A stretch of 64,000 nucleotides of DNA from Prauserella cavernicola (GTDB lineage Bacteria; Actinomycetota; Actinomycetes; Mycobacteriales; Pseudonocardiaceae): the NCBI RefSeq assembly GCF_016595675.1, contig NZ_JAENJH010000001.1, positions 1,177,137 through 1,241,136 on the forward strand, read 5' to 3'. The translations under genes were made by a program, and so were the position numbers. Below the pieces are notes generated by a model. It was not told the DNA's origin. It worked only from the letters and a program-made list of their open reading frames with translations, and made no database searches. Shown in pieces: positions 22,202 to 33,551 of this stretch (the first letter of the stretch is position 1; every line of letters begins with the position of its first letter).

Positions 22202-24448
22202 TTACATCAGCACCGAACCGGACGGCAGCGGCAGCTTCGCCAGCCGGTACTCCGGCGGCTCGGCGCCGTGCAGGTGCCGCACGAAGTAGTCCCACAGGCG
22301 ACGGGTCACGTAGTGCATGCGGCCGAACATCGCGTGCTCGACACCGGGCACCAGTAGCAGGTCGAAGTCCTTGTCGGCCTCGATCAGCGCGTCGGCCAGG
22401 CGCAGCGTCTGGTATGGGTGCACGTTGTCGTCGAGCTCGCCGTGCATGAGCAGCAGCTTGCCGCGCAGGTTCGCGGCCAGCGCGGTGTTGGAGATCGCGC
22501 GCTTGCCCTCGTCGCTGACGTCGCCGTGGTACTGCTCGGCCCACATCGAGAGGTAGACACCGCTGTCGTGGTTTCCCGCCACGGCGACCCCGACCGAGTA
22601 GAACTCCGGATGCGTCAGCAGTGCGCGGGCGGTGGCGAACCCGCCGCCGGAGTGCCCGGTCATGCCGACCCGCTCCGTGTCCAGCCACGGGTACCGGTGG
22701 CCGAGCTCGCGAATCGCCGCGACGTGGTCGGCCAGCTCGCTGGACTCGCCGAGCGCGCCGTAGGAGTAGTCGTGGAACGCCTTGCCACGGCCAGGTGTTC
22801 CACGACCGTCGATGGCGACGACGGCGAAGCCCAGTGCGGCGAGCGCCTCCGGATCTCCGGTCCCGGTGTTGTCGAACGACGACGCGGTGCGGCACACCTG
22901 CGGCCCGGGATAGCTGTGGTCGATCACCGGGTAACGGCGATCCGGGTCGAAGCCGTGCGGGCGCCAGAGCAGGCCGTAGATCGAGGTCTTGCCGTCCGCC
23001 GCGGTCGTGCGGAACCGTTCCGGCGGCGTCCAGCCGAGGGCGGCGAGCTCGCTCGCGTCCGGTGACTCCAGCTCCACCAGTACCAGCCCGTCGCCGTCGA
23101 GCACCGCCGACCGCGGCGGCGTGCTCACCGTCGAGGCGCGGTCGACGAGGTAACCGCCCTCGGGCGGGCTGATCGCGTCGTGGTCGAACTCGTCGTCGGT
23201 CAGGCGCGCGAAACCGGTGCCGTCGAGCCCGATCCGGCAGATCTGACGGACGTAGGGGTCACCGTCCACCAGCCCGGCGGCGACGAACCACACCTGCCTG
23301 CGCTCTTCGTCGACCCACAGCACGCGGCGCACGAGCCACTGTCCCGAGGTGAGCTGCGTGGGCACGGTCGCCTCGGCCGGGTAGAGGTAGAGGTGACCCC
23401 AGCCGTCGCGCTGCGACCACCACAGGACCTCACCGGAGTCGAGCACGCGCGCCATCGGCGGCTCCCAGTACTCCGGGGTCGGGTCGACGCGGGTCCGGCC
23501 GGTCTCGGCCAGCACCGTCGTCACCTCGCCGGTGGCCGGGTCGAGCCTGCGCAGCTCCAGTGCGAGCCCGTCGCGGGACTGGTGCAGGAAGTGCACCGCC
23601 TCGCCCTGCTTTCCGGTCCACCACCGGAACTCCTCCAGCATCGACGGATGGGTCGCCAGGAAGGGCTCGCCCTGCTGGCGCACGATCTCGCGCGTGGTGA
23701 CGTCGAGGACCGTCCACGACGCCGTCGCCGTGGTCTCGTCGCCCGCGATCGGGTAGCGGTAGCGGTGCGCCACGGGCCTGCCGCCGTCGCGGGGAGCGGA
23801 CTCCACGAGCACCTGCTCGGCGAGCGCGCGCTGGTCGAGCCGGTGGGTCAGGATCCGCGTCGAGTCGGGCGACCACACCAGCACCGGCGCGGGTTCGAGC
23901 CCGAACGCCCGCAGCAGCGTCCGCGAACTCAGCGCGTCGACGGTGACGCCGTAGCCGAAGTCCGGCTCGGCGTCGTCGGTGAGCGCGAACTCCTGCTCGC
24001 CGTCGCGGGAGCGGACCCAGATGTCGCCGTCGCGGCGGAACGCGCACCACTTCTTGTCGGGTGAGGCCACCTCGCCCGGCCCCTCGGGCCGGTCCCTTTC
24101 CACCCGGACACACTCACCAGAACGGAACTCCCACCGCGCATCGAACGCCGAGAACCGGACGGAGTCCCCGAGCTCCACCGAAGTGATCGGCAGGTCGGTG
24201 GCCTCCACCGCGTGGCCCGAGGCCGCCGACAATGCCGCGGCGAGCCGGTCGGCGTCGACCGCGTCGCGCTTGGTGCCCTCGGCCGGGTCGACCACGACGA
24301 ACCGTGACCCGGCCTGATAGGCGAACCGCGCTCCCCCGGCCAGCCATCGCGGCTGCACCGCGCCGGGCACCCGCAGTGCCCGGTTCGGCGCCAGCATCTG
24401 CTCGGCTCGTGCGTAGTCCGCATCGGACAGTCTGGTCACTGTTCTCAT
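22202..24448 (-). CDS. S9B-type prolyl oligopeptidase (dipeptidyl-peptidase IV-like)
   Basis: Serine peptidase of 748 residues. The N-terminal 480 residues form an eight-bladed DPP-IV-type propeller and the rest is an alpha/beta-hydrolase domain with Ser in GMTGHSGGGFA (near residue 600), Asp in HGELDDNVHP and His in PGVEHAMFG. No signal peptide is visible, so it is probably cytoplasmic and removes dipeptides from Pro-containing peptides. ATG at 24448 is preceded five bases upstream by GGAGG; the frame extends 26 codons upstream without support. It is the second S9 peptidase in the window and is not closely similar to the first. It is convergent with the oxidoreductase, three bases apart. Confidence 0.92.
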   Translation of the reverse strand: MRTVTRLSDADYARAEQMLAPNRALRVPGAVQPRWLAGGARFAYQAGSRFVVVDPAEGTKRDAVDADRLAAALSAASGHAVEATDLPITSVELGDSVRFSAFDARWEFRSGECVRVERDRPEGPGEVASPDKKWCAFRRDGDIWVRSRDGEQEFALTDDAEPDFGYGVTVDALSSRTLLRAFGLEPAPVLVWSPDSTRILTHRLDQRALAEQVLVESAPRDGGRPVAHRYRYPIAGDETTATASWTVLDVTTREIVRQQGEPFLATHPSMLEEFRWWTGKQGEAVHFLHQSRDGLALELRRLDPATGEVTTVLAETGRTRVDPTPEYWEPPMARVLDSGEVLWWSQRDGWGHLYLYPAEATVPTQLTSGQWLVRRVLWVDEERRQVWFVAAGLVDGDPYVRQICRIGLDGTGFARLTDDEFDHDAISPPEGGYLVDRASTVSTPPRSAVLDGDGLVLVELESPDASELAALGWTPPERFRTTAADGKTSIYGLLWRPHGFDPDRRYPVIDHSYPGPQVCRTASSFDNTGTGDPEALAALGFAVVAIDGRGTPGRGKAFHDYSYGALGESSELADHVAAIRELGHRYPWLDTERVGMTGHSGGGFATARALLTHPEFYSVGVAVAGNHDSGVYLSMWAEQYHGDVSDEGKRAISNTALAANLRGKLLLMHGELDDNVHPYQTLRLADALIEADKDFDLLLVPGVEHAMFGRMHYVTRRLWDYFVRHLHGAEPPEYRLAKLPLPSGSVLM

Positions 24449-24591
24449 CCCTTCCTCCGGCTGCGTCGACACCGAGGACACACCCTGACGTCGCGTCGGG
24501 CTCAAGGCGGAGGTGATCCGGGCCACGCGACGACCACCCGATCGCGGCGCGGAGTTGACCCCGACCCGACGTCACGGTTTCTGCTGTGCCC

Positions 24592-26543: not shown

Positions 26544-26696
26544 TCAGGCGGGTTCGGCCACGCACGTGAGGTCACCCTCGGGACGCGGTCCTGTCTTCAG
26601 GAACGTCGTCACCGCGTCGTTGGCACACTGGTTCTCGCCGATCAGGTACGTGCCGTGGCCGCCCTGGTCCGCCGTCACCATCCGGGCCCGGTCCCC
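26544..26696 (-). pseudogene. 3' remnant of a TAP-like secreted alpha/beta-hydrolase
   Basis: On the minus strand the last 50 or so codons read RMVTADQGGHGTYLIGENQC...CVAEPA and a stop. This matches the C-terminal TAP-like domain of secreted tripeptidyl aminopeptidase-type hydrolases, including the catalytic-His neighbourhood (GGHG) and the paired Cys. Upstream of about 26696 the frame no longer resembles a hydrolase, and a remnant on the other strand begins, so the first roughly 450 residues are missing. The boundary is an estimate. Confidence 0.65.
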
Positions 26697-26702
26697 GGGT
26701 CG

Positions 26703-27287
26703 ATGGCCGAGGCCACGGTCGTGGACTCCCGGGCGACGGAGCAGGTCTGCGACGGTCCGGTGTGCGTCACCGCGATCCACGAGAACGAACTCGCCCGGCG
26801 CTCCGGGCCGGGCGAGCGGGCGCTGCGGCTGCTCGCCACGCTGCCGGGCGCACCGTCGCGCATCGCCGAGGTCGATCACGCCGTCTCGCCCGACGAGGTG
26901 CCGCCCCGTGCCGGGGACACCGTGCTCGTCGACCTCATGACGCCGTCCCTGCGCTCCGCCACCGAGCCCGACGACGTGACGCGGTCGTTGCTCGCGGGAG
27001 CCGGAACACCGTCGTGCTATCCGGCGTGGGAGGAGACCACCGACGCCGCGCTGCACGAGCGTGCCGCGCGAACGGTCATGGCGGGCTGGTTCACCGGCGA
27101 GCCGACACCGCTGCGCGGGCACAGTGTGTCCGATGTGGACCTGCGGCCGGTGCTCGAACGGTCGTGGGCCGCGCTGCGCGCGCTGCCCGACGAGGAACAG
27201 CGCAGCCGCGTCATCGCGGTCAGGGAGGCGGGGCTGACCTGCCGGGGCGACCAGCTCGAGATCCTCACCGGCGGGACGACCGGATGA
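26703..27287 (+). pseudogene. C-terminal remnant of an actinobacterial ABC-linked membrane protein (DUF7224-like)
   Basis: An open frame of 194 residues without any membrane helix. The sequence (EQVCDGPVCVTAIHENEL, TPSCYPAWEE, RTVMAGWFTGEPTPLRG, EAGLTCRGDQL) resembles the extracytoplasmic C-terminal domain of large membrane proteins that normally follow an ABC ATPase gene in actinomycetes. The N-terminal membrane half and the ATPase are absent; the fragment begins where the reverse-strand hydrolase remnant ends. It overlaps the next short frame by ATGA, as intact copies of this operon do. I judge it a decayed gene rather than a functional short protein; the family name is from memory. Confidence 0.6.
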
Positions 27288-27867: not shown

Positions 27868-28581
27868 TCAGCGCGCGGAGTCGGTCAGCGGCACGCCGAG
27901 GACGTCGAACCGCGCACCGGGCGTGAACTCCTCGGGCGACTGGCCCCGCCGGAACAACCGCGCGGTGTGCCCGTGCAGCGTCACACCGGTTCCGTTGACC
28001 CGCAGCCACGCGCCCTCGCGCAGCCCGAGCACGGCGATGTCGTTCTCCTCGTGGAACTCCGCGAGCCGCTTCTCCCTGGTCTCGCCCATGTGCGTGCTGT
28101 GGGGGTCGGGGTCCAGGTAGTGGGGGTTGATCTGGAACCCGATGAGCCCGATGGCGTCGAAGCTGTCGGGCTCGACGATGGGCATGTCGTTGGTGGTGCG
28201 CAGCGTCGGGCACGCCATGTTGGTGCCCGCGCTGGCTCCGCCGTAGCGGGCGCCGCCCCTGACCGCGTCCCGGATCGCGCCGACGAGTCCCTTTCGCTGC
28301 AGGGTGCGCAGCAGCCGGAACGAGTTGCCACCGCCGATGAACACCGCGTCGGCCGAGGCCATCGTCGCGGCGGGGTCGGCCTCGGTGTGCAGTCCGCGCA
28401 GCCGGAGACCGCTGCGGGCGAAGGCCTCGGCCATCACCTGCGTGTAGCCGTCGTGATCGGCGAGTGCGTAGGGCACGAACCACACGTCGCGGCCCGCGTA
28501 GAACTCGGCCAGCGCGTCGCGGGCGTGGGAGAGCCGCTCGGCGCCGTGGTTGGCGGAGTTGGACAGCAGCATCAGTTCCAC
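27868..28581 (-). CDS. pepE: Peptidase E (alpha-aspartyl dipeptidase, family S51)
   Basis: Cytoplasmic serine peptidase of 237 residues that cleaves N-terminal Asp from dipeptides. The class I glutamine amidotransferase-like fold shows GGGNSFRLL and the nucleophile elbow GGASAGTN with Ser117; Asp132 and His154 (FQINPHYLDPD) complete the triad at the same spacing as Ser120/Asp135/His157 of the Salmonella/E. coli enzyme. It lies 37 bases downstream of a racemase gene on the same strand and near an OPT-type transporter, so it may hydrolyse imported Asp- or isoAsp-containing peptides, which is inference. Confidence 0.93.
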   Translation of the reverse strand: MELMLLSNSANHGAERLSHARDALAEFYAGRDVWFVPYALADHDGYTQVMAEAFARSGLRLRGLHTEADPAATMASADAVFIGGGNSFRLLRTLQRKGLVGAIRDAVRGGARYGGASAGTNMACPTLRTTNDMPIVEPDSFDAIGLIGFQINPHYLDPDPHSTHMGETREKRLAEFHEENDIAVLGLREGAWLRVNGTGVTLHGHTARLFRRGQSPEEFTPGARFDVLGVPLTDSAR

Positions 28582-28618
28582 GGGCGTGTTCCTCTCGGCT
28601 GTGGAGTTCCGGCCCGCG

Positions 28619-29269
28619 TCAGCGTGCCACGTGCAGGGCCGCGATCGACCCGGTGGCTCGCACCGCGTCCACCACCGGCACGCTCCACGCCGCCCGCGCC
28701 TCGGGGCCGAGCGCGATCGAGGTCAGGCCCGTGCAGCTGAACAGGATCGTGGACGCGCCGTCGTCGACGAGCGCGCCCACCGCCGCCAGCGAGGCGCGCC
28801 TGCCCTGCTCGGTGAGCAGGTCGGTGGTCTTGCGCACGCCCTCGGGCCTGCGATAGGCGACGAGGCGCGAGCCCAGCACAGCCGAGACGGCCTCGGGAGC
28901 CTGGTCGTTGATGCCCAGCACGCCCACGTCGTTGCTCACGGCCGCGGCGACCGCTGCCGAGGTCGACCCCGCCCCGAGCACCGGAACCGGCACGGCGGCC
29001 CTGGCCTCGGCCAGCGCCGGATCGGCCGCGCAGCTGATGACGATCGCCGCAGCTCCCGACTCCGCCAGCGCGACGGACTCCGCGACGATCTTGGGCGCCG
29101 CCGCCGCGTGGCTGTCGGGGTCGAAAACACCGTGCGGCTGGTCGGGGATGCACACCGAGCGCGTGGCGATGCCGTGCTCGTCGGTGATGGCCCGGCCGTG
29201 CGCGGTCAGCAGTTCCTGGTCGGACGTGGTCAGCACCCTGACCACGCCGACGAACGGCGCGGCACTCAC
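28619..29269 (-). CDS. Asp/Glu/hydantoin racemase-family protein
   Basis: A 216-residue member of the Asp/Glu/hydantoin racemase superfamily, which interconverts amino acid or hydantoin enantiomers using two Cys as acid/base pair. Both appear to be present: VISCAADPAL near residue 83 and LFSCTGLTSI near 175, in two similar half-domains. The GTG at 29269 overlaps the stop of the DUF1177 gene (GTGA), so the two are translated together. The substrate could be an amino acid, hydantoin or another alpha-substituted acid; sequence alone does not decide. Confidence 0.85.
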   Translation of the reverse strand: MSAAPFVGVVRVLTTSDQELLTAHGRAITDEHGIATRSVCIPDQPHGVFDPDSHAAAAPKIVAESVALAESGAAAIVISCAADPALAEARAAVPVPVLGAGSTSAAVAAAVSNDVGVLGINDQAPEAVSAVLGSRLVAYRRPEGVRKTTDLLTEQGRRASLAAVGALVDDGASTILFSCTGLTSIALGPEARAAWSVPVVDAVRATGSIAALHVAR

Positions 29270-30204
29270 CGGGCGGCCGCCTCGCCGCGCAGGTGGTTGA
29301 GCGAGCCGTAGGTGCGCTCGAGCAGGGCGAACTCGTCGCGGTCGTAGAACTGCGCGCGACCGGCTCCAAACTCCTTGGCCGCCTCGATGCAGAAGCGCGC
29401 GGCGGACTCCACGCTCGTCAGGTCGGTCGCGCCGGTCGCGGAGCCGGGAACAGCCGACTCGGTGGTGATCGCCACGCCCACGACCGGGGCCGTCGTGGCC
29501 ACCGACGGCTGGAGCAGCGAGTTGATGTGGTGCACGCCGTTGCCGTAGGGGGTGATGTCCTGCGTCGTCACGGGCAGCACCACCGGGTGGGCGCCCGTGG
29601 TGATCGCGGCGACGTTCAGCAGGTCCTCGCGGACCCGCAGGATCCAGCCCTCCTTGATCGTCGGCGTGAGGGCGAACCCGCGGTGGTTGAGGATCCGGTT
29701 GCCCTTCGTGGTGTCCACGGAGAGGATCGCGTCCATCCGTTCGTCCACTTCGTACTCGTTGGTGGTGGCGAAGGCCACCGGCGAGTCCATGAACGGCACG
29801 GGGTCGTGCGGCCGGGTCGGGGCGTTCGGGCAGATGTGCGTGGTCAGCACGACGTCGCCGGGCAGCACGTCGCCACGCTTGCGCATGGTGGCGAGCTTGG
29901 CCGCGACGGTGACGACCGTGAGCGCACCGTCCCCATCGGACACGAAACCGATCTGCTCGGGCCTGGCCCCGATGCCGCCGAGCCTGCCGATCACACCGAG
30001 AGTGGGCGCGTCGCCACCGGCGGTGCGGCCCGCCGAGCCGGGGATCACGACCTTGATGAAGTCGGTCGATCCCTTCGCCTCGGTGACGGTCCGCACGGTG
30101 ACGTCCTCGACACCGGCTCCGCGCAGCCAGTCGGCGACAGACTTCCCGGTGACGGCCGGGTCGTCCAGCAGTTCCTCGGCCTCGATGACCTGGCGCCAGG
30201 GCAC
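29266..30204 (-). CDS. DUF1177 family protein
   Basis: A 312-residue soluble protein recognised as DUF1177 by TTHICPNAPTRPHDPVPFMDSP and QDITPYGNGVHHINSLLQPS; the biochemical role is unknown. The sequence carries an N-terminal helical region (EAEELLDDPAVTGKSVADWLR) and a conserved Gly/His-rich core with several potential metal ligands (His in TTHIC, HHIN). It is the first gene of an operon with the racemase and peptidase E and diverges from an IclR/OPT/AroM operon. This neighbourhood suggests amino acid or peptide metabolism. Confidence 0.85.
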   Translation of the reverse strand: MPWRQVIEAEELLDDPAVTGKSVADWLRGAGVEDVTVRTVTEAKGSTDFIKVVIPGSAGRTAGGDAPTLGVIGRLGGIGARPEQIGFVSDGDGALTVVTVAAKLATMRKRGDVLPGDVVLTTHICPNAPTRPHDPVPFMDSPVAFATTNEYEVDERMDAILSVDTTKGNRILNHRGFALTPTIKEGWILRVREDLLNVAAITTGAHPVVLPVTTQDITPYGNGVHHINSLLQPSVATTAPVVGVAITTESAVPGSATGATDLTSVESAARFCIEAAKEFGAGRAQFYDRDEFALLERTYGSLNHLRGEAAAR

Positions 30205-30299
30205 GACAGAGCCTCCTCAAATCCTGGTCGGCGCGACACGAACTCGTAACACGAGCGGCGCGGCGAACCCGTTGACATTTCCTGTGAGGATCGTGTGCC

Positions 30300-30330
30300 A
30301 TGAGGCGCGCTAAATGCAACAGCGTCTCAT
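30300..30330. promoter_or_regulatory. Inverted repeat in the divergent DUF1177/IclR promoter region
   Basis: ATGAGGCGC (30300-30308) and GCGTCTCAT (30322-30330) form a 9-bp dyad with one mismatch and a 13-base spacer, centred between the divergent DUF1177 and IclR genes. It is a plausible operator for the IclR protein encoded 28 bases downstream. Confidence 0.45.
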
Positions 30331-30357
30331 TATCAGCAACAGACAAAGGCAGTGACA

Positions 30358-31128
30358 GTGGACGAGAACCCCGCGGGACCACTTCGGACGGTGGATCGCG
30401 CCCTGGTCGTGCTCGGTGCGTTCACCGACGAACGACCCGAGCGCGGCGTCGTGGAGCTGGCCCGAGAGCTGGGCCTCGACAAGTCCCAGGTGCAGCGCAT
30501 GCTCGCCACACTGGCCGCCCGCGGGTTTCTGACCGTGAACGCCAACACCCGGCGGTACCGGCTCGGGCCCGCTCTGCTGGGACTGGGCCGCCGCGCCGAA
30601 CGCAGCATCGGGCTCGACGGAGCCATTCCCCCCACGCTGCACGACCTGGCCCACGAGTTCGAGCTCAGCGCGGTGTTCAACGTGCCCGACGGCCACCACT
30701 ACCGCTGTGCCGCCGCGGTCGACTACCCGGGACCGCTGCGCTACTCCGCCGCCATCGGCCAGCTCTACCCCGGCCACGGCGGGGCGAGCGGGCACGCCAT
30801 CTTCGCCCAGTTGCCCGCCGACCACGTACGGCAACTGTTCACCGGTCACCTCACCCCGATGACCCGGGGATCGATCACCTCCGTCGACGCACTGCTCGCC
30901 CGGCACGCGGACGTCCGCGAACAGGGCGTCGCGGTCAGCGAAGGCGAATACCACACCCAGGTCATGGCCGTCGCCGCTCCCGTTTTCGTCGCGGGCGCCG
31001 TGATCGGCTCACTGGCCATCGCGGGAGCCGCGGACAACATGCGCGACCGGGCCGAGAGCATCGCCGCCACGGTCCGGATCCGCGCGCGGGAACTGACGCT
31101 GGGCTACCAGCCCGGCGCGGCCCGCTGA
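30358..31128 (+). CDS. IclR-family transcriptional regulator
   Basis: Regulator of 256 residues with winged helix (TVDRALVVLGAF, LGLDKSQVQRMLATLAARG, residues 9-70) and an IclR effector domain (YPGHGGASGHAIFAQL). GTG at 30358 is chosen because AAAGG ends eight bases upstream; a GTG six bases earlier is too close to that site. It stands between two divergent operons (DUF1177-racemase-pepE and OPT-aroM) and probably controls both by binding the intergenic dyad. Confidence 0.9.
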   Translation: MDENPAGPLRTVDRALVVLGAFTDERPERGVVELARELGLDKSQVQRMLATLAARGFLTVNANTRRYRLGPALLGLGRRAERSIGLDGAIPPTLHDLAHEFELSAVFNVPDGHHYRCAAAVDYPGPLRYSAAIGQLYPGHGGASGHAIFAQLPADHVRQLFTGHLTPMTRGSITSVDALLARHADVREQGVAVSEGEYHTQVMAVAAPVFVAGAVIGSLAIAGAADNMRDRAESIAATVRIRARELTLGYQPGAAR

Positions 31129-31161
31129 TCCGCCTCCTCACTCTCTGTCCCAAGGACCCCC

Positions 31162-32853
31162 ATGTCAGCAGTGAACCGGTCGCGTCAGGTCTCCGACCCG
31201 ACCCACCGCCACCCCCGCGTCATCGAGCCGGTCGTGCTCGCGACCACTCTCGGCCTGAGCGTGCTCGGCGCCGTGGTCGGCATGCACATGATCACCACAC
31301 TCGGTGTCACGGCGAACACCTCGATCGTCGGCGCGCTGCTGGCGATGCTGATCGGCAGAGTCTCGGTCGGCGGGCTCAAGTCGATGCGCTCGCCACACCG
31401 GCAGAACCTGGCTCAGACGTCGATCTCGGCCGCCACGTTCTCCGCGGCCAACTCCCTGCTGACCCCGATGGCGGTGTTGTTCGCGTTCGGGCGCGCCGAC
31501 CTGGTCTGGCCGATGCTGATCGGCGCCGTGGTGGCGCTGTTCGTCGACGGCTACGTCCTGTACCGCCTGTTCGGCAGCCCAGCGCTGCCCGCCGAGGCGG
31601 CGTGGCCACCCGGTGTCGCGGCCGCCGAGACGATCAAGGCGGGTGACCGGGGCGGCAAGCAGGCCATGATCCTCGGCGCCGCGGGTGCCGTCGGTCTCGC
31701 CGGATCGCTCGCCGGGCTGTCGATGTCCGCCGCGGGTGTCGCCCTGATCGGCAACGCGTGGGCGCTCAGCATGTTCGGGCTCGGGCTGCTCACCGCCCAG
31801 TACGCACCGGACCTGCTCAACATCGACCTCGAGGGGCTCTACCTGCCGCACGGGCTCATGATCGGTGCGGGCATCGTGGCGCTGGTACAGGCAAGCGCGA
31901 TCCTGCTCCGCCGCCGGTCGAGGACGGCCGACGCCGAGCGCGCGGACAGCACTCTCGCGGAGCCGGAGACCACTGCGTCCTCCGAGACCTCCGAGACCTC
32001 CGAGATCTCGGAGGCACCGGCGGCCGACGAGCCGACCGCGCCCGCCGAGGCCCGCTCCGGCAGCCGAGGGCTGGCCGAGGGGCTCGGGTTGTTCCTCGGC
32101 GGCGCCCTGCTGCTGGCGCTGATCAGCGGGATCGCGGCCGACATGAGCGTGCTGGGCATCATCGGCTGGATCGTGTTCGCCGGGGTCGCCGCGCTCGTGC
32201 ACGAGATCATCGTCGGGCTCGCCGCCATGCACGCGGGCTGGTTCCCGGCGTTCGCGGTCACACTGATCTTCCTGTTGTTCGGTCTGCTGCTCGGCATCCC
32301 CGGACTGCCGCTGGCCGTGCTGACCGGCTACTGCGCCGCGACCGGACCCGCGTTCGCCGACATGGGCTACGACCTCAAAGCGGGCTGGATCCTGCGGCGC
32401 GACGAACCGGGAGGACGCCGGTTCGAGCTCTCGGGCCGTCGGCAGCAGTACTTCGCCTCGATGATCGGCTTCGTCGTCGCCGCCGTGGTCGTGGCGCTGC
32501 TGTGGGAGCGCTACTTCACCGCGGGCGAGGTGCCGCCGGTGGCCGAGGTGTACGCCACCACGATCCTGCAGGGACTCTCCGACCCCGACGTCCTGCTCTC
32601 GCTGGCGATCTGGGCCGTGCCCGGCGCGATCATCCAGCTCATCGGCGGCAGCAGCCGCCAGCTCGGCGTGCTGCTGGCGACCGGTCTGCTGGTGGCCACG
32701 GCGGACGCGGGCTGGCTGGTGGTCGGCGCCCTCGCGATCAGGTTCATCTACCGCAAGCTGCGCGGCCCCCGCGCGGACAAGGAACTCGCCCTCGTCGGCG
32801 CCGGCATGATCGCCGGCGACGCCATCGCAGCGACCTCGAAGGTGGTGCAGTGA
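31162..32853 (+). CDS. OPT-family-like oligopeptide transporter
   Basis: Polytopic membrane protein of 563 residues with about fourteen predicted helices. The N-terminal half (HRQNLAQTSISAATFSAANSLL, PPGVAAAETIKAGD) and the alternation of long helices with short loops fit the OPT/YSL superfamily, which imports peptides or metal chelates by proton symport. A hydrophilic loop near residues 250-305 contains a 9-bp tandem repeat (31981-32007) encoding a Thr-Ser-Glu run. GTG of aroM overlaps its stop. The family call rests on pattern similarity, not a full alignment; the substrate is unknown, with peptides likely given pepE nearby. Confidence 0.75.
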   Translation: MSAVNRSRQVSDPTHRHPRVIEPVVLATTLGLSVLGAVVGMHMITTLGVTANTSIVGALLAMLIGRVSVGGLKSMRSPHRQNLAQTSISAATFSAANSLLTPMAVLFAFGRADLVWPMLIGAVVALFVDGYVLYRLFGSPALPAEAAWPPGVAAAETIKAGDRGGKQAMILGAAGAVGLAGSLAGLSMSAAGVALIGNAWALSMFGLGLLTAQYAPDLLNIDLEGLYLPHGLMIGAGIVALVQASAILLRRRSRTADAERADSTLAEPETTASSETSETSEISEAPAADEPTAPAEARSGSRGLAEGLGLFLGGALLLALISGIAADMSVLGIIGWIVFAGVAALVHEIIVGLAAMHAGWFPAFAVTLIFLLFGLLLGIPGLPLAVLTGYCAATGPAFADMGYDLKAGWILRRDEPGGRRFELSGRRQQYFASMIGFVVAAVVVALLWERYFTAGEVPPVAEVYATTILQGLSDPDVLLSLAIWAVPGAIIQLIGGSSRQLGVLLATGLLVATADAGWLVVGALAIRFIYRKLRGPRADKELALVGAGMIAGDAIAATSKVVQ

Positions 32854-33551
32854 CCATGACGGAACCCACGCTCGGCCTCGTCACGATCGGCCAGGCTCCC
32901 CGCACGGACCTGGTGCCCGAACTGCGCGCGACGCTGCCGCCGTGCCGGATCATCGAGCACGGCGCGCTCGACGGGCTCGACGCAGCGCAGATCGCGGACC
33001 TCGCGCCCCGGCCCGGCGAGCACGCCGTGACCTCGCGCCTGGCCGACGGCGGGTCCGCGGTGTTCGGCCACGACCAGGCGCTGCCGCTGATCGGCGAAGC
33101 CATCGCCCGCGCCGAGGACGACGGCGCCGACGTGGTGCTGCTGGCCTGCAGCGGCGCGTTCCCGGACATGCCGCACCGCACGCCGCTGCTGCTCGTCGAG
33201 CAACTGGCCCACCACGGCGTGGCCGGGTTCGGAAGCGAACCGCGCATCGGGATCATCCGGCCGCTGCCCGAGCAGCTGCCCGACGCGCTGCCCGCGTGGG
33301 AGCGCTCGCTCGGCCGTCCCATCGCCGCCGCCGACGCCGCGAACCCCTACGCCGACGGGGAGTCCGCGTCCGCGGCGGCCGCCAAGCGGATCGCCGGGGA
33401 CGTGGACCTGATCGTGCTCGACTGCATGGGCTTCGACGAGCCGATGCGCCGGGCGGCCTCCGCGGCGGCGGGCAAGCCCACGCTGCTGGTCCGCTCGCTC
33501 GCGGCCCGGCTCACCGCCGAGCTGCTGGTCGCGACACCGCCCCGTGGCTAG
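32850..33551 (+). CDS. aroM: AroM-family protein
   Basis: A 233-residue protein of the AroM family, structurally related to Asp/Glu racemases but of unknown activity. It begins LGLVTIGQAPRTDLVPEL, the AroM signature, and carries two Cys in racemase-like positions, LLACSGAFPDMP and VLDCMGFDEPM. GTG at 32850 overlaps the transporter stop and has GAAGG seven bases upstream. AroM genes are named for proximity to aro genes in E. coli; no aromatic pathway gene is here, whereas a second two-Cys racemase-like protein sits in the divergent operon. Confidence 0.88.
   Translation: MTMTEPTLGLVTIGQAPRTDLVPELRATLPPCRIIEHGALDGLDAAQIADLAPRPGEHAVTSRLADGGSAVFGHDQALPLIGEAIARAEDDGADVVLLACSGAFPDMPHRTPLLLVEQLAHHGVAGFGSEPRIGIIRPLPEQLPDALPAWERSLGRPIAAADAANPYADGESASAAAAKRIAGDVDLIVLDCMGFDEPMRRAASAAAGKPTLLVRSLAARLTAELLVATPPRG

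Follow-up and report, generated by a model that had tools for sequence, protein, structure and literature searches.

Six genes that lie together in Prauserella cavernicola, within the 64,000-nucleotide stretch analyzed here (contig NZ_JAENJH010000001.1, positions 1,177,137 to 1,241,136; hereafter the window), encode the alpha-aspartyl dipeptidase PepE, a two-Cys racemase, a DUF1177 protein, an IclR-family regulator, an OPT-family oligopeptide transporter and AroM. Their grouping around DUF1177 goes far beyond chance, and the same six genes are found together again, arranged differently along the DNA, on plasmids and in bacteria that are only distantly related. As a module it is well supported. 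Its probable task is the uptake and breakdown of something peptide-like, perhaps of dipeptides closed into a ring: we regard a catabolic module of the dipeptide type as likely when the cyclic and linear versions are taken together, and assign a probability of about 0.4 to one for cyclic dipeptides (2,5-diketopiperazines), which in this bacterium would be of the Asp-X type. A preliminary description of this DNA had proposed the import of an unusual peptide or D-amino acid compound, its stereochemical inversion and dipeptide cleavage. That outline fits what was found (either an OPT or a dipeptide transporter at most loci but rarely both, a racemase fold for AroM and a PepE that passes its equivalog model), while its substrate can now be narrowed, tentatively, to cyclic dipeptides.

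The gene neighborhood of DUF1177

Named bacterial and archaeal genomes were scanned with a profile from eight DUF1177 proteins and with two motifs, which gave at least 569 confirmed relatives. The counts that follow refer to the best 80 of these, each with up to 10 kb of flank on either side (the other 489 lie outside the counts), and neighbors were counted by six-frame profile searches, with domain matches scoring at least 60. The controls were 40 stretches of 20 kb at round-number coordinates, all from Actinomycetota and most from DUF1177-bearing genomes; 39 of them are distinct, the duplicate pair being the same genome under two record handles, and all were scored with the same neighbor models as the 80 loci. 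Since these hidden Markov models were built from the very loci in which they were counted, the absolute counts lean upward.

AroM was found near DUF1177 in 49 of the 80 loci, IclR in 33, OPT in 31, the peptidases M29 and M20 in 31 and 26, the racemase in 23, DUF917 and DppB in 21 each, and pepE in 19; tblastn adds IclR genes at L019, L061, L073, L075 and L092, raising that count to at least 38. The 39 distinct control stretches hold not a single AroM, OPT, racemase, pepE, M29 or DUF917 gene. IclR (4 of 40), the oligopeptide ATP-binding cassette (ABC) ATPase (11), DppB, DppC and SBP5 (3 each) and M20 (1) do occur in the controls, and their links with DUF1177 are for this reason weaker evidence. 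The 80 loci cover 11 phyla, and AroM accompanies DUF1177 in nine of these, under 41 genus or record labels. The grouping from which the preliminary description had argued is thus no local accident, the co-occurrence of DUF1177, AroM, racemase, OPT and pepE being conserved across several phyla and on plasmids.

Within this neighborhood the transporters and the peptidases appear to be exchangeable. Either an OPT gene or a DppB-DppC pair is present in 49 of the 80 loci and both together in only three; a peptidase gene (pepE, M29 or M20) is present in 50, its type varying from locus to locus among pepE, M20, M29 or an alpha/beta hydrolase. In the six Streptomyces loci, DUF1177 stands beside both pepE and M20. 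Such transporter and peptidase genes are to be expected if the imported compound is peptide-like, and their exchange suggests that it is and that the last step is the cleavage of a peptide bond, leaving it unspecified whether the compound is cyclic. DUF917 is found near DUF1177 mostly in Bacillota and Synergistota. A few individual assignments are divergent or negative: tblastn found no pepE in L078 or L082, and Pfam gave no match in the L078 frame; the OPT of L068 was detected by our own OPT model, with no Pfam OPT match in that genome (G430); and one of the two M29 matches of L045 falls under the Pfam cut-off, as a divergent M29.

Two further features of these neighborhoods may be recorded. 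A 281-residue family (c16), matched by neither Pfam nor NCBIfam, is found inside the DUF1177 operon in seven of the 80 loci (for example L044:6155-7000), in six of them between DUF1177 and AroM and in one just after AroM. In seven genomes of a single family of the phylum sample (L011-L017), DUF1177 directly precedes M29, and the opposite strand carries DUF917 and a gene resembling hydantoinases; neither AroM nor racemase is nearby.

The distribution across whole genomes follows a similar pattern. Among 397 genomes of the window's order, 11 have DUF1177 and eight have AroM above the cut-off, and all eight of the latter have DUF1177 (Fisher p 1.2e-14, uncorrected for kinship). The two genes are within a few kb of each other in seven of the eight and on different contigs in the remaining one (G773); a ninth AroM match (G761) is under the cut-off and comes without DUF1177. 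The 396 genomes of the phylum sample include nine with DUF1177 and four with a strong AroM match, two of which have DUF1177 (p 0.003). Of the remaining two, G257 has AroM, IclR, OPT and DUF917 without DUF1177 (L112), and the AroM gene of G212 lies at a contig end. A weak AroM match in G142 (L113) was better explained by the racemase model and was left out of the AroM counts. The module is evidently accessory, as the one genome in the order sample that shares the window's genus (G682) is without DUF1177.

The complete six-gene set was found in nine of the 80 loci, a lower bound in view of the undercounted IclR: in Actinopolymorpha, Actinocatenispora (two), Actinoalloteichus, Microlunatus, Nocardiopsis, Pantoea, Serratia and Erwinia. 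The six genes are together in four of ten relatives from the window's order; one of these four (L128) has the window's layout and another (L124) is probably the same as the Actinoalloteichus locus. Seven plasmid records matched, and of the six plasmid loci examined two, from Klebsiella and Sodalis, have all six genes in the order IclR-OPT-DUF1177-AroM-pepE-racemase; on the conjugative plasmid of Klebsiella the full set is flanked by transposase genes (L167:1616-11453). In a quick DUF1177 tree (104 rows, with support from the Shimodaira-Hasegawa-like approximate likelihood-ratio test only) the enterobacterial rows cluster with rows from Bacillota and Achromobacter, in a group of 13, apart from the actinobacterial OPT type. 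The presence of pepE requires at least four changes on this tree (81 rows with enough flank), a figure in which gains and losses are not distinguished; repeated joining of PepE would be the simpler reading.

Predicted folds and conserved residues

The DUF1177 model, built with AlphaFold2 on 54 sequences, is of good quality (predicted local distance difference test score, pLDDT, 87.5; predicted template-modeling score 0.90). Its fold resembles that of the co-catalytic metallo-exopeptidases of M17/M28 type: Foldseek gave 176 matches in the PDB at E<=0.001, and the 50 of them listed all belong to the M17 leucyl aminopeptidases (together with BotP) or the M28 aminopeptidases, with E values from 2e-8 to 8e-7. 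These matches are moderate (template-modeling score about 0.5 by query, root-mean-square deviation 5.6 or more, 10-17% identity), and the likeness to these enzymes is one of overall fold, whereas at the sequence level there is no match and their metal ligands are not recognizably conserved. Nine polar residues (D90, D92, H123, H133, D164, N169, D216, H226 and N228) are invariant in all 105 aligned DUF1177 rows, and D90, H123, H133, D164 and H226 among them are candidate metal ligands. HHalign weakly aligns the D90 segment (probability 1.4%) with the segment of M20 that holds the bridging Asp; the remaining ligand set is not recognizable, and the metal site of DUF1177 is therefore put forward as a proposal. 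That the canonical peptidase ligands cannot be recognized would also suit a different role for DUF1177, namely that of a metal- or substrate-binding accessory, with hydrolysis left to DUF917, M29, M20 or PepE. We consider this decidedly improbable in view of the nine invariant residues and of the persistence of DUF1177 at loci without DUF917, racemase or AroM, even if the loci were chosen for DUF1177.

PepE scores 277.1 bits against a cut-off of 156 for the NCBIfam equivalog, its nearest PDB entries are the alpha-aspartyl dipeptidases 7c9b (the closest) and 1fy2, and the catalytic triad is kept throughout the aligned rows (S117 in 28/28, H154 and E189 in 27/27), in alignment with S120, H157 and E192 of PMC9239234. 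It thus resembles the Salmonella PepE (1fy2) in both respects and differs from it in its setting, a module with racemase, AroM, OPT, IclR and DUF1177. According to PMC9239234, S51 relatives (MccG) make cells resistant to processed microcin C, and the occurrence of the six-gene set on plasmids would suit a function of this kind, in which a peptide antibiotic or a nucleotide-peptide of the microcin C kind, once imported, would be inactivated by PepE and DUF1177. Such a detoxification is nevertheless very improbable: overexpression of the E. coli PepE gave no protection against microcin C according to PMC9239234, an importer and two racemases are better suited to catabolism, and the third triad residue, Asp in MccG (not the sole determinant, as the D196E mutant in the same source indicates), is Glu in 27 of 27 pepE rows here.

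The preliminary description had already noted two Cys in racemase-like positions in both the racemase and AroM. The alignments bear this out, with C81 and C180 of the racemase (in the numbering of its 217-residue translation) present in 29 of 29 rows and C98 and C190 of AroM in all 61 rows long enough to align. Residues 8-215 of the racemase match its nearest PDB entry, 2eq5 from P. horikoshii (E 9e-46), and its first Cys aligns, weakly (E 0.003), with that of the allantoin racemase 3qvj in the motif C-x-x-D-P-[AG]-L. Family, paired Cys and first-Cys motif are therefore shared with these two, although 2eq5 is itself titled only a "hypothetical hydantoin racemase". Hydantoin and allantoin racemases have cyclic amides and ureides as their substrates, and it is for this reason that the epimerization in the module may take place on the ring. 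The AroM model (pLDDT 96.6) has a racemase fold with two Cys: it gave 68 Foldseek matches in the PDB at E<=0.001, the top one again 2eq5, and they include arylmalonate decarboxylase and aspartate, allantoin and glutamate racemases (3dtv, 5b19 and 5lg5 among them), while its score with PF01177, 18.6 bits, is under the cut-off of 31. An identity with the AroM of E. coli (PRK10481) was rejected, the 178.8 bits of the window's protein falling short of the 198-bit equivalog cut-off. Both belong to the same Pfam family, above its cut-off, but the E. coli control genome carries AroM without DUF1177; the E. coli aroM gene adjoins aroL. A resemblance of the predicted AroM structure to hydantoin and Glu/Asp racemases is described in PMC11055893, so that the statement in the preliminary description that DUF1177 and AroM lack a known activity needs amending for AroM. 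Outside the bacteria, PMC5025739 lists an AroM gene (HGT31) among those that the apple fungus Valsa mali obtained by horizontal transfer.

These folds bring us to the main rival explanation, in which the whole module works on linear peptides. OPT would import linear dipeptides with D- or isomerized residues, DUF1177 would be an exopeptidase for them, PepE would cleave Asp-X, and the racemase and AroM would turn the released D-amino acids (for example D-Asp) into the L form. The modeled fold of DUF1177 is that of linear-peptide exopeptidases, the peptidase genes of the neighborhood come with OPT or Dpp transporters, and the fold matches of AroM include the aspartate racemase 5b19 as well as glutamate racemases. 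On the other hand, the first-Cys motif of the racemase (CFGDPGL) follows allantoin racemase and not glutamate racemase, by eye and in weak alignments (E 0.003), and a linear substrate leaves the linkage of DUF917 and of cyclodipeptide oxidase genes, discussed below, without an explanation. We consider it a serious explanation, if a rather unlikely one.

Layout of the six genes in the window

The six genes form two divergent operons (Table 1), DUF1177-racemase-pepE to the left and IclR-OPT-AroM to the right. The gene assignments of the preliminary description are upheld, the products of all six exceeding their Pfam cut-offs, and its 153-bp divergent region is right when counted from the second GTG of IclR; from the start given in the table it is 147 bp. 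The racemase and DUF1177 genes overlap by 4 bp, and the PF03169 match of OPT is split over two stretches of the protein. The IclR protein reaches no NCBIfam equivalog cut-off, and no IclR operator could be identified in the divergent region, which shows only a palindrome at 30294-30321, imperfect at 71%, and a single match, on the minus strand, that resembles a promoter.

Table 1. Coordinates in the window of the six genes and of the region between their operons.
Feature	Position	Strand	Basis
pepE, alpha-aspartyl dipeptidase (peptidase S51)	27868-28581	-	Pfam 190.4 bits; NCBIfam PepE equivalog
Two-Cys racemase, hydantoin/allantoin type (PF01177)	28619-29269	-	Pfam 75.6 bits, cut-off 31
DUF1177 (PF06675), proposed amidohydrolase with a predicted metallo-exopeptidase fold	29266-30204	-	Pfam 443.3 bits
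Divergent promoter region, common to the DUF1177 and IclR operons	30205-30351		Sequence
IclR-family regulator	30352-31128	+	Pfam IclR_C 73.0 bits, HTH_IclR 51.0 bits
Short-form oligopeptide transporter of the OPT family, 563 aa	31162-32853	+	PF03169 66.7 bits, cut-off 25.8
AroM (PF07302), racemase fold, C98 and C190	32856-33551	+	Pfam 227.4 bits

Two neighbors on the minus strand also concern peptides. An S9 gene of the prolyl-oligopeptidase/DPP IV-like type (22202-24526) lies 3.3 kb from pepE and places peptide catabolism nearby; it is outside the partner families found around DUF1177. The frame at 26544-27122 is probably the remnant of a secreted peptidase gene, residues 144-187 of its 192 matching positions 62-103 of 103 in PF08386, the end of a TAP-like peptidase domain.

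Cyclic dipeptides as the candidate substrate

Clusters of cyclodipeptide oxidase (CDO) genes without a cyclodipeptide synthase are, according to PMC11055893, enriched in hydantoin racemases, DUF917, AroM, OPT, dipeptide ABC transporters and peptidases. That article proposes roles in purine/hydantoin metabolism or in secondary metabolism and suggests that the peptidases may process peptides. The company of AroM, racemase, DUF917 and OPT around CDO genes is thus partly known already, and the remark in the preliminary description that no such pathway was known does not extend to this enrichment. It does stand for the module centered on DUF1177: in the open-access PMC literature, supplements not covered, we found no description of such a module, of its six-gene plasmid form or of the DUF1177 fold, the only full-text mention of DUF1177 concerning an unrelated fungal family, and a full-text search of the main text of PMC11055893 (again without supplements) did not find the term DUF1177.

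These clusters and the module both bring together a PF01177 racemase, a PF07302 AroM, an OPT or dipeptide ABC transporter and peptidases, and at one relative locus CDO genes and DUF1177-AroM stand in line: L111, in the genome of L087, has on one strand HyuA, three DUF917 genes, DUF6092, a nitroreductase, a nitrilase-like gene (under the NCBIfam cut-offs), DUF1177, AroM and a further DUF917, the DUF6092 and nitroreductase genes being those of the CDO. In Thermococcus (L108, 1-12198) a CDO pair is accompanied by DUF917, M29, three genes resembling racemases, a complete dipeptide ABC transporter and an M20 gene truncated where the contig ends, and the same genome also holds a racemase-DUF917-DUF1177-AroM-M29-OPT run (L045). 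At L110, CDO-B adjoins PucR, Dpp, M29 and DUF917. The differences are that the window's genome is without a CDO-B gene and its module without DUF917, and that a catabolic route ending in PepE is not among the roles proposed in the text of PMC11055893.

The hydantoin metabolism named in that article might itself account for the module, as a salvage of hydantoins, thiohydantoins or other cyclic ureides in which the racemase and AroM epimerize hydantoins, DUF1177 hydrolyzes an N-carbamoyl or hydantoin amide and PepE is accessory. The nearest relatives of the racemase and AroM are indeed hydantoin/allantoin racemases, a DUF917 protein from these clusters is related to thiohydantoin desulfurases, PucR regulators are near DUF1177 in nine of the 80 loci, and HyuA is present in three of the 80 and in seven of the eight loci of the phylum sample. 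Yet the window's six genes include no hydantoinase, carbamoylase or DUF917, its PepE exceeds the dipeptidase equivalog cut-off, peptide transporters and peptidases are common neighbors of DUF1177, and that one DUF917 protein, with 105 and 93 bits, stays well under the respective cut-offs of 450 and 440. This salvage is accordingly improbable.

It is the fold of DUF1177 together with the link to CDO clusters that leads us to cyclic dipeptides, perhaps Asp-containing ones, as a concrete substrate class. The OPT transporter would import a dipeptide-like compound, perhaps cyclo(Asp-X); the racemase and AroM would invert Calpha by two-Cys proton transfer, perhaps on the ring, and thereby bring D-containing stereoisomers into the same route; DUF1177, as a remodeled metallo-exopeptidase, would hydrolyze an amide and open the ring to Asp-X, a dipeptide that PepE could use if Asp is N-terminal; PepE would then cleave Asp-X into Asp and an amino acid, and IclR would control both operons. 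What the analysis establishes is the genes, their conserved association, the fold matches of the models and the conservation of candidate catalytic residues; each reaction, the substrate, the direction of transport and the regulation are inferred. In its strictest form – DUF1177 as a new family of diketopiperazine hydrolases, the racemase and AroM epimerizing the intact ring, and OPT and PepE completing a self-contained and horizontally moving pathway for cyclic (Asp-containing) dipeptides – the proposal is doubtful.

An activity of this kind has been observed. According to PMC3852281, none of 15 peptidases tested cut the cyclic dipeptides, although some strains do, and the hydrolysis of cyclo(Asp-Phe) is inducible in Streptomyces flavovirens, the enzymes responsible being unidentified in 2013; in the open-access literature we found neither a diketopiperazine hydrolase identified later nor a verified enzyme sequence. 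The reaction proposed for DUF1177 is that of these uncloned hydrolases, one of them inducible in a Streptomyces strain, and in other Streptomyces DUF1177 has pepE and M20 as neighbors.

Several observations weigh against a cyclic substrate. The M17/M28-like fold of DUF1177 suits linear peptides equally, sequence profiles found no peptidase for it, and HHalign gave it a probability of 1.4% with M20 and of 0.3% with M28, the latter carrying little weight because that set held only two usable sequences. There are other candidates for opening the ring, namely DUF917 (21 of the 80 loci, absent here) and the ATP-dependent HyuA/HyuB-type enzymes, some of whose 5-oxoprolinase-like genes may be cyclic dipeptide hydrolases according to PMC6061476. 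A search for CDO-B (PF19585) in 48 DUF1177 genomes (the window's and 47 of those of the 80 loci, mostly with partner genes) gave no match in the window's genome and matches in only four of the 48, as compared with none of 14 control genomes, which supply no matched background rate; at one of the matches (L109) no partner gene lies within 10 kb. We can point to no strain that degrades cyclic dipeptides and carries DUF1177. Eleven of the 80 loci, some of them on short contigs, lack all eight of the partner families considered (pepE, racemase, OPT, AroM, M29, M20, DUF917 and DppB). Finally, the tree-based paired exchange tests, mostly too small, were not significant (median p 0.0625 for OPT-racemase, 0.125 for M20-DppB and 0.5 for OPT-DppB, OPT-AroM and racemase-AroM).

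Which enzymes hydrolyze cyclic dipeptides remains unclear in the words of the authors of PMC3852281, and DUF1177 is a conserved and testable candidate with ready partners. If the cyclic-dipeptide pathway is correct, it would provide functions for DUF1177 and AroM, two uncharacterized families of bacteria and archaea. Even if the substrate should prove to be a linear peptide, the six genes would still be a recurrent, plasmid-borne catabolic unit, one that provides DUF1177 and AroM with a context, a fold and residues that can be tested.

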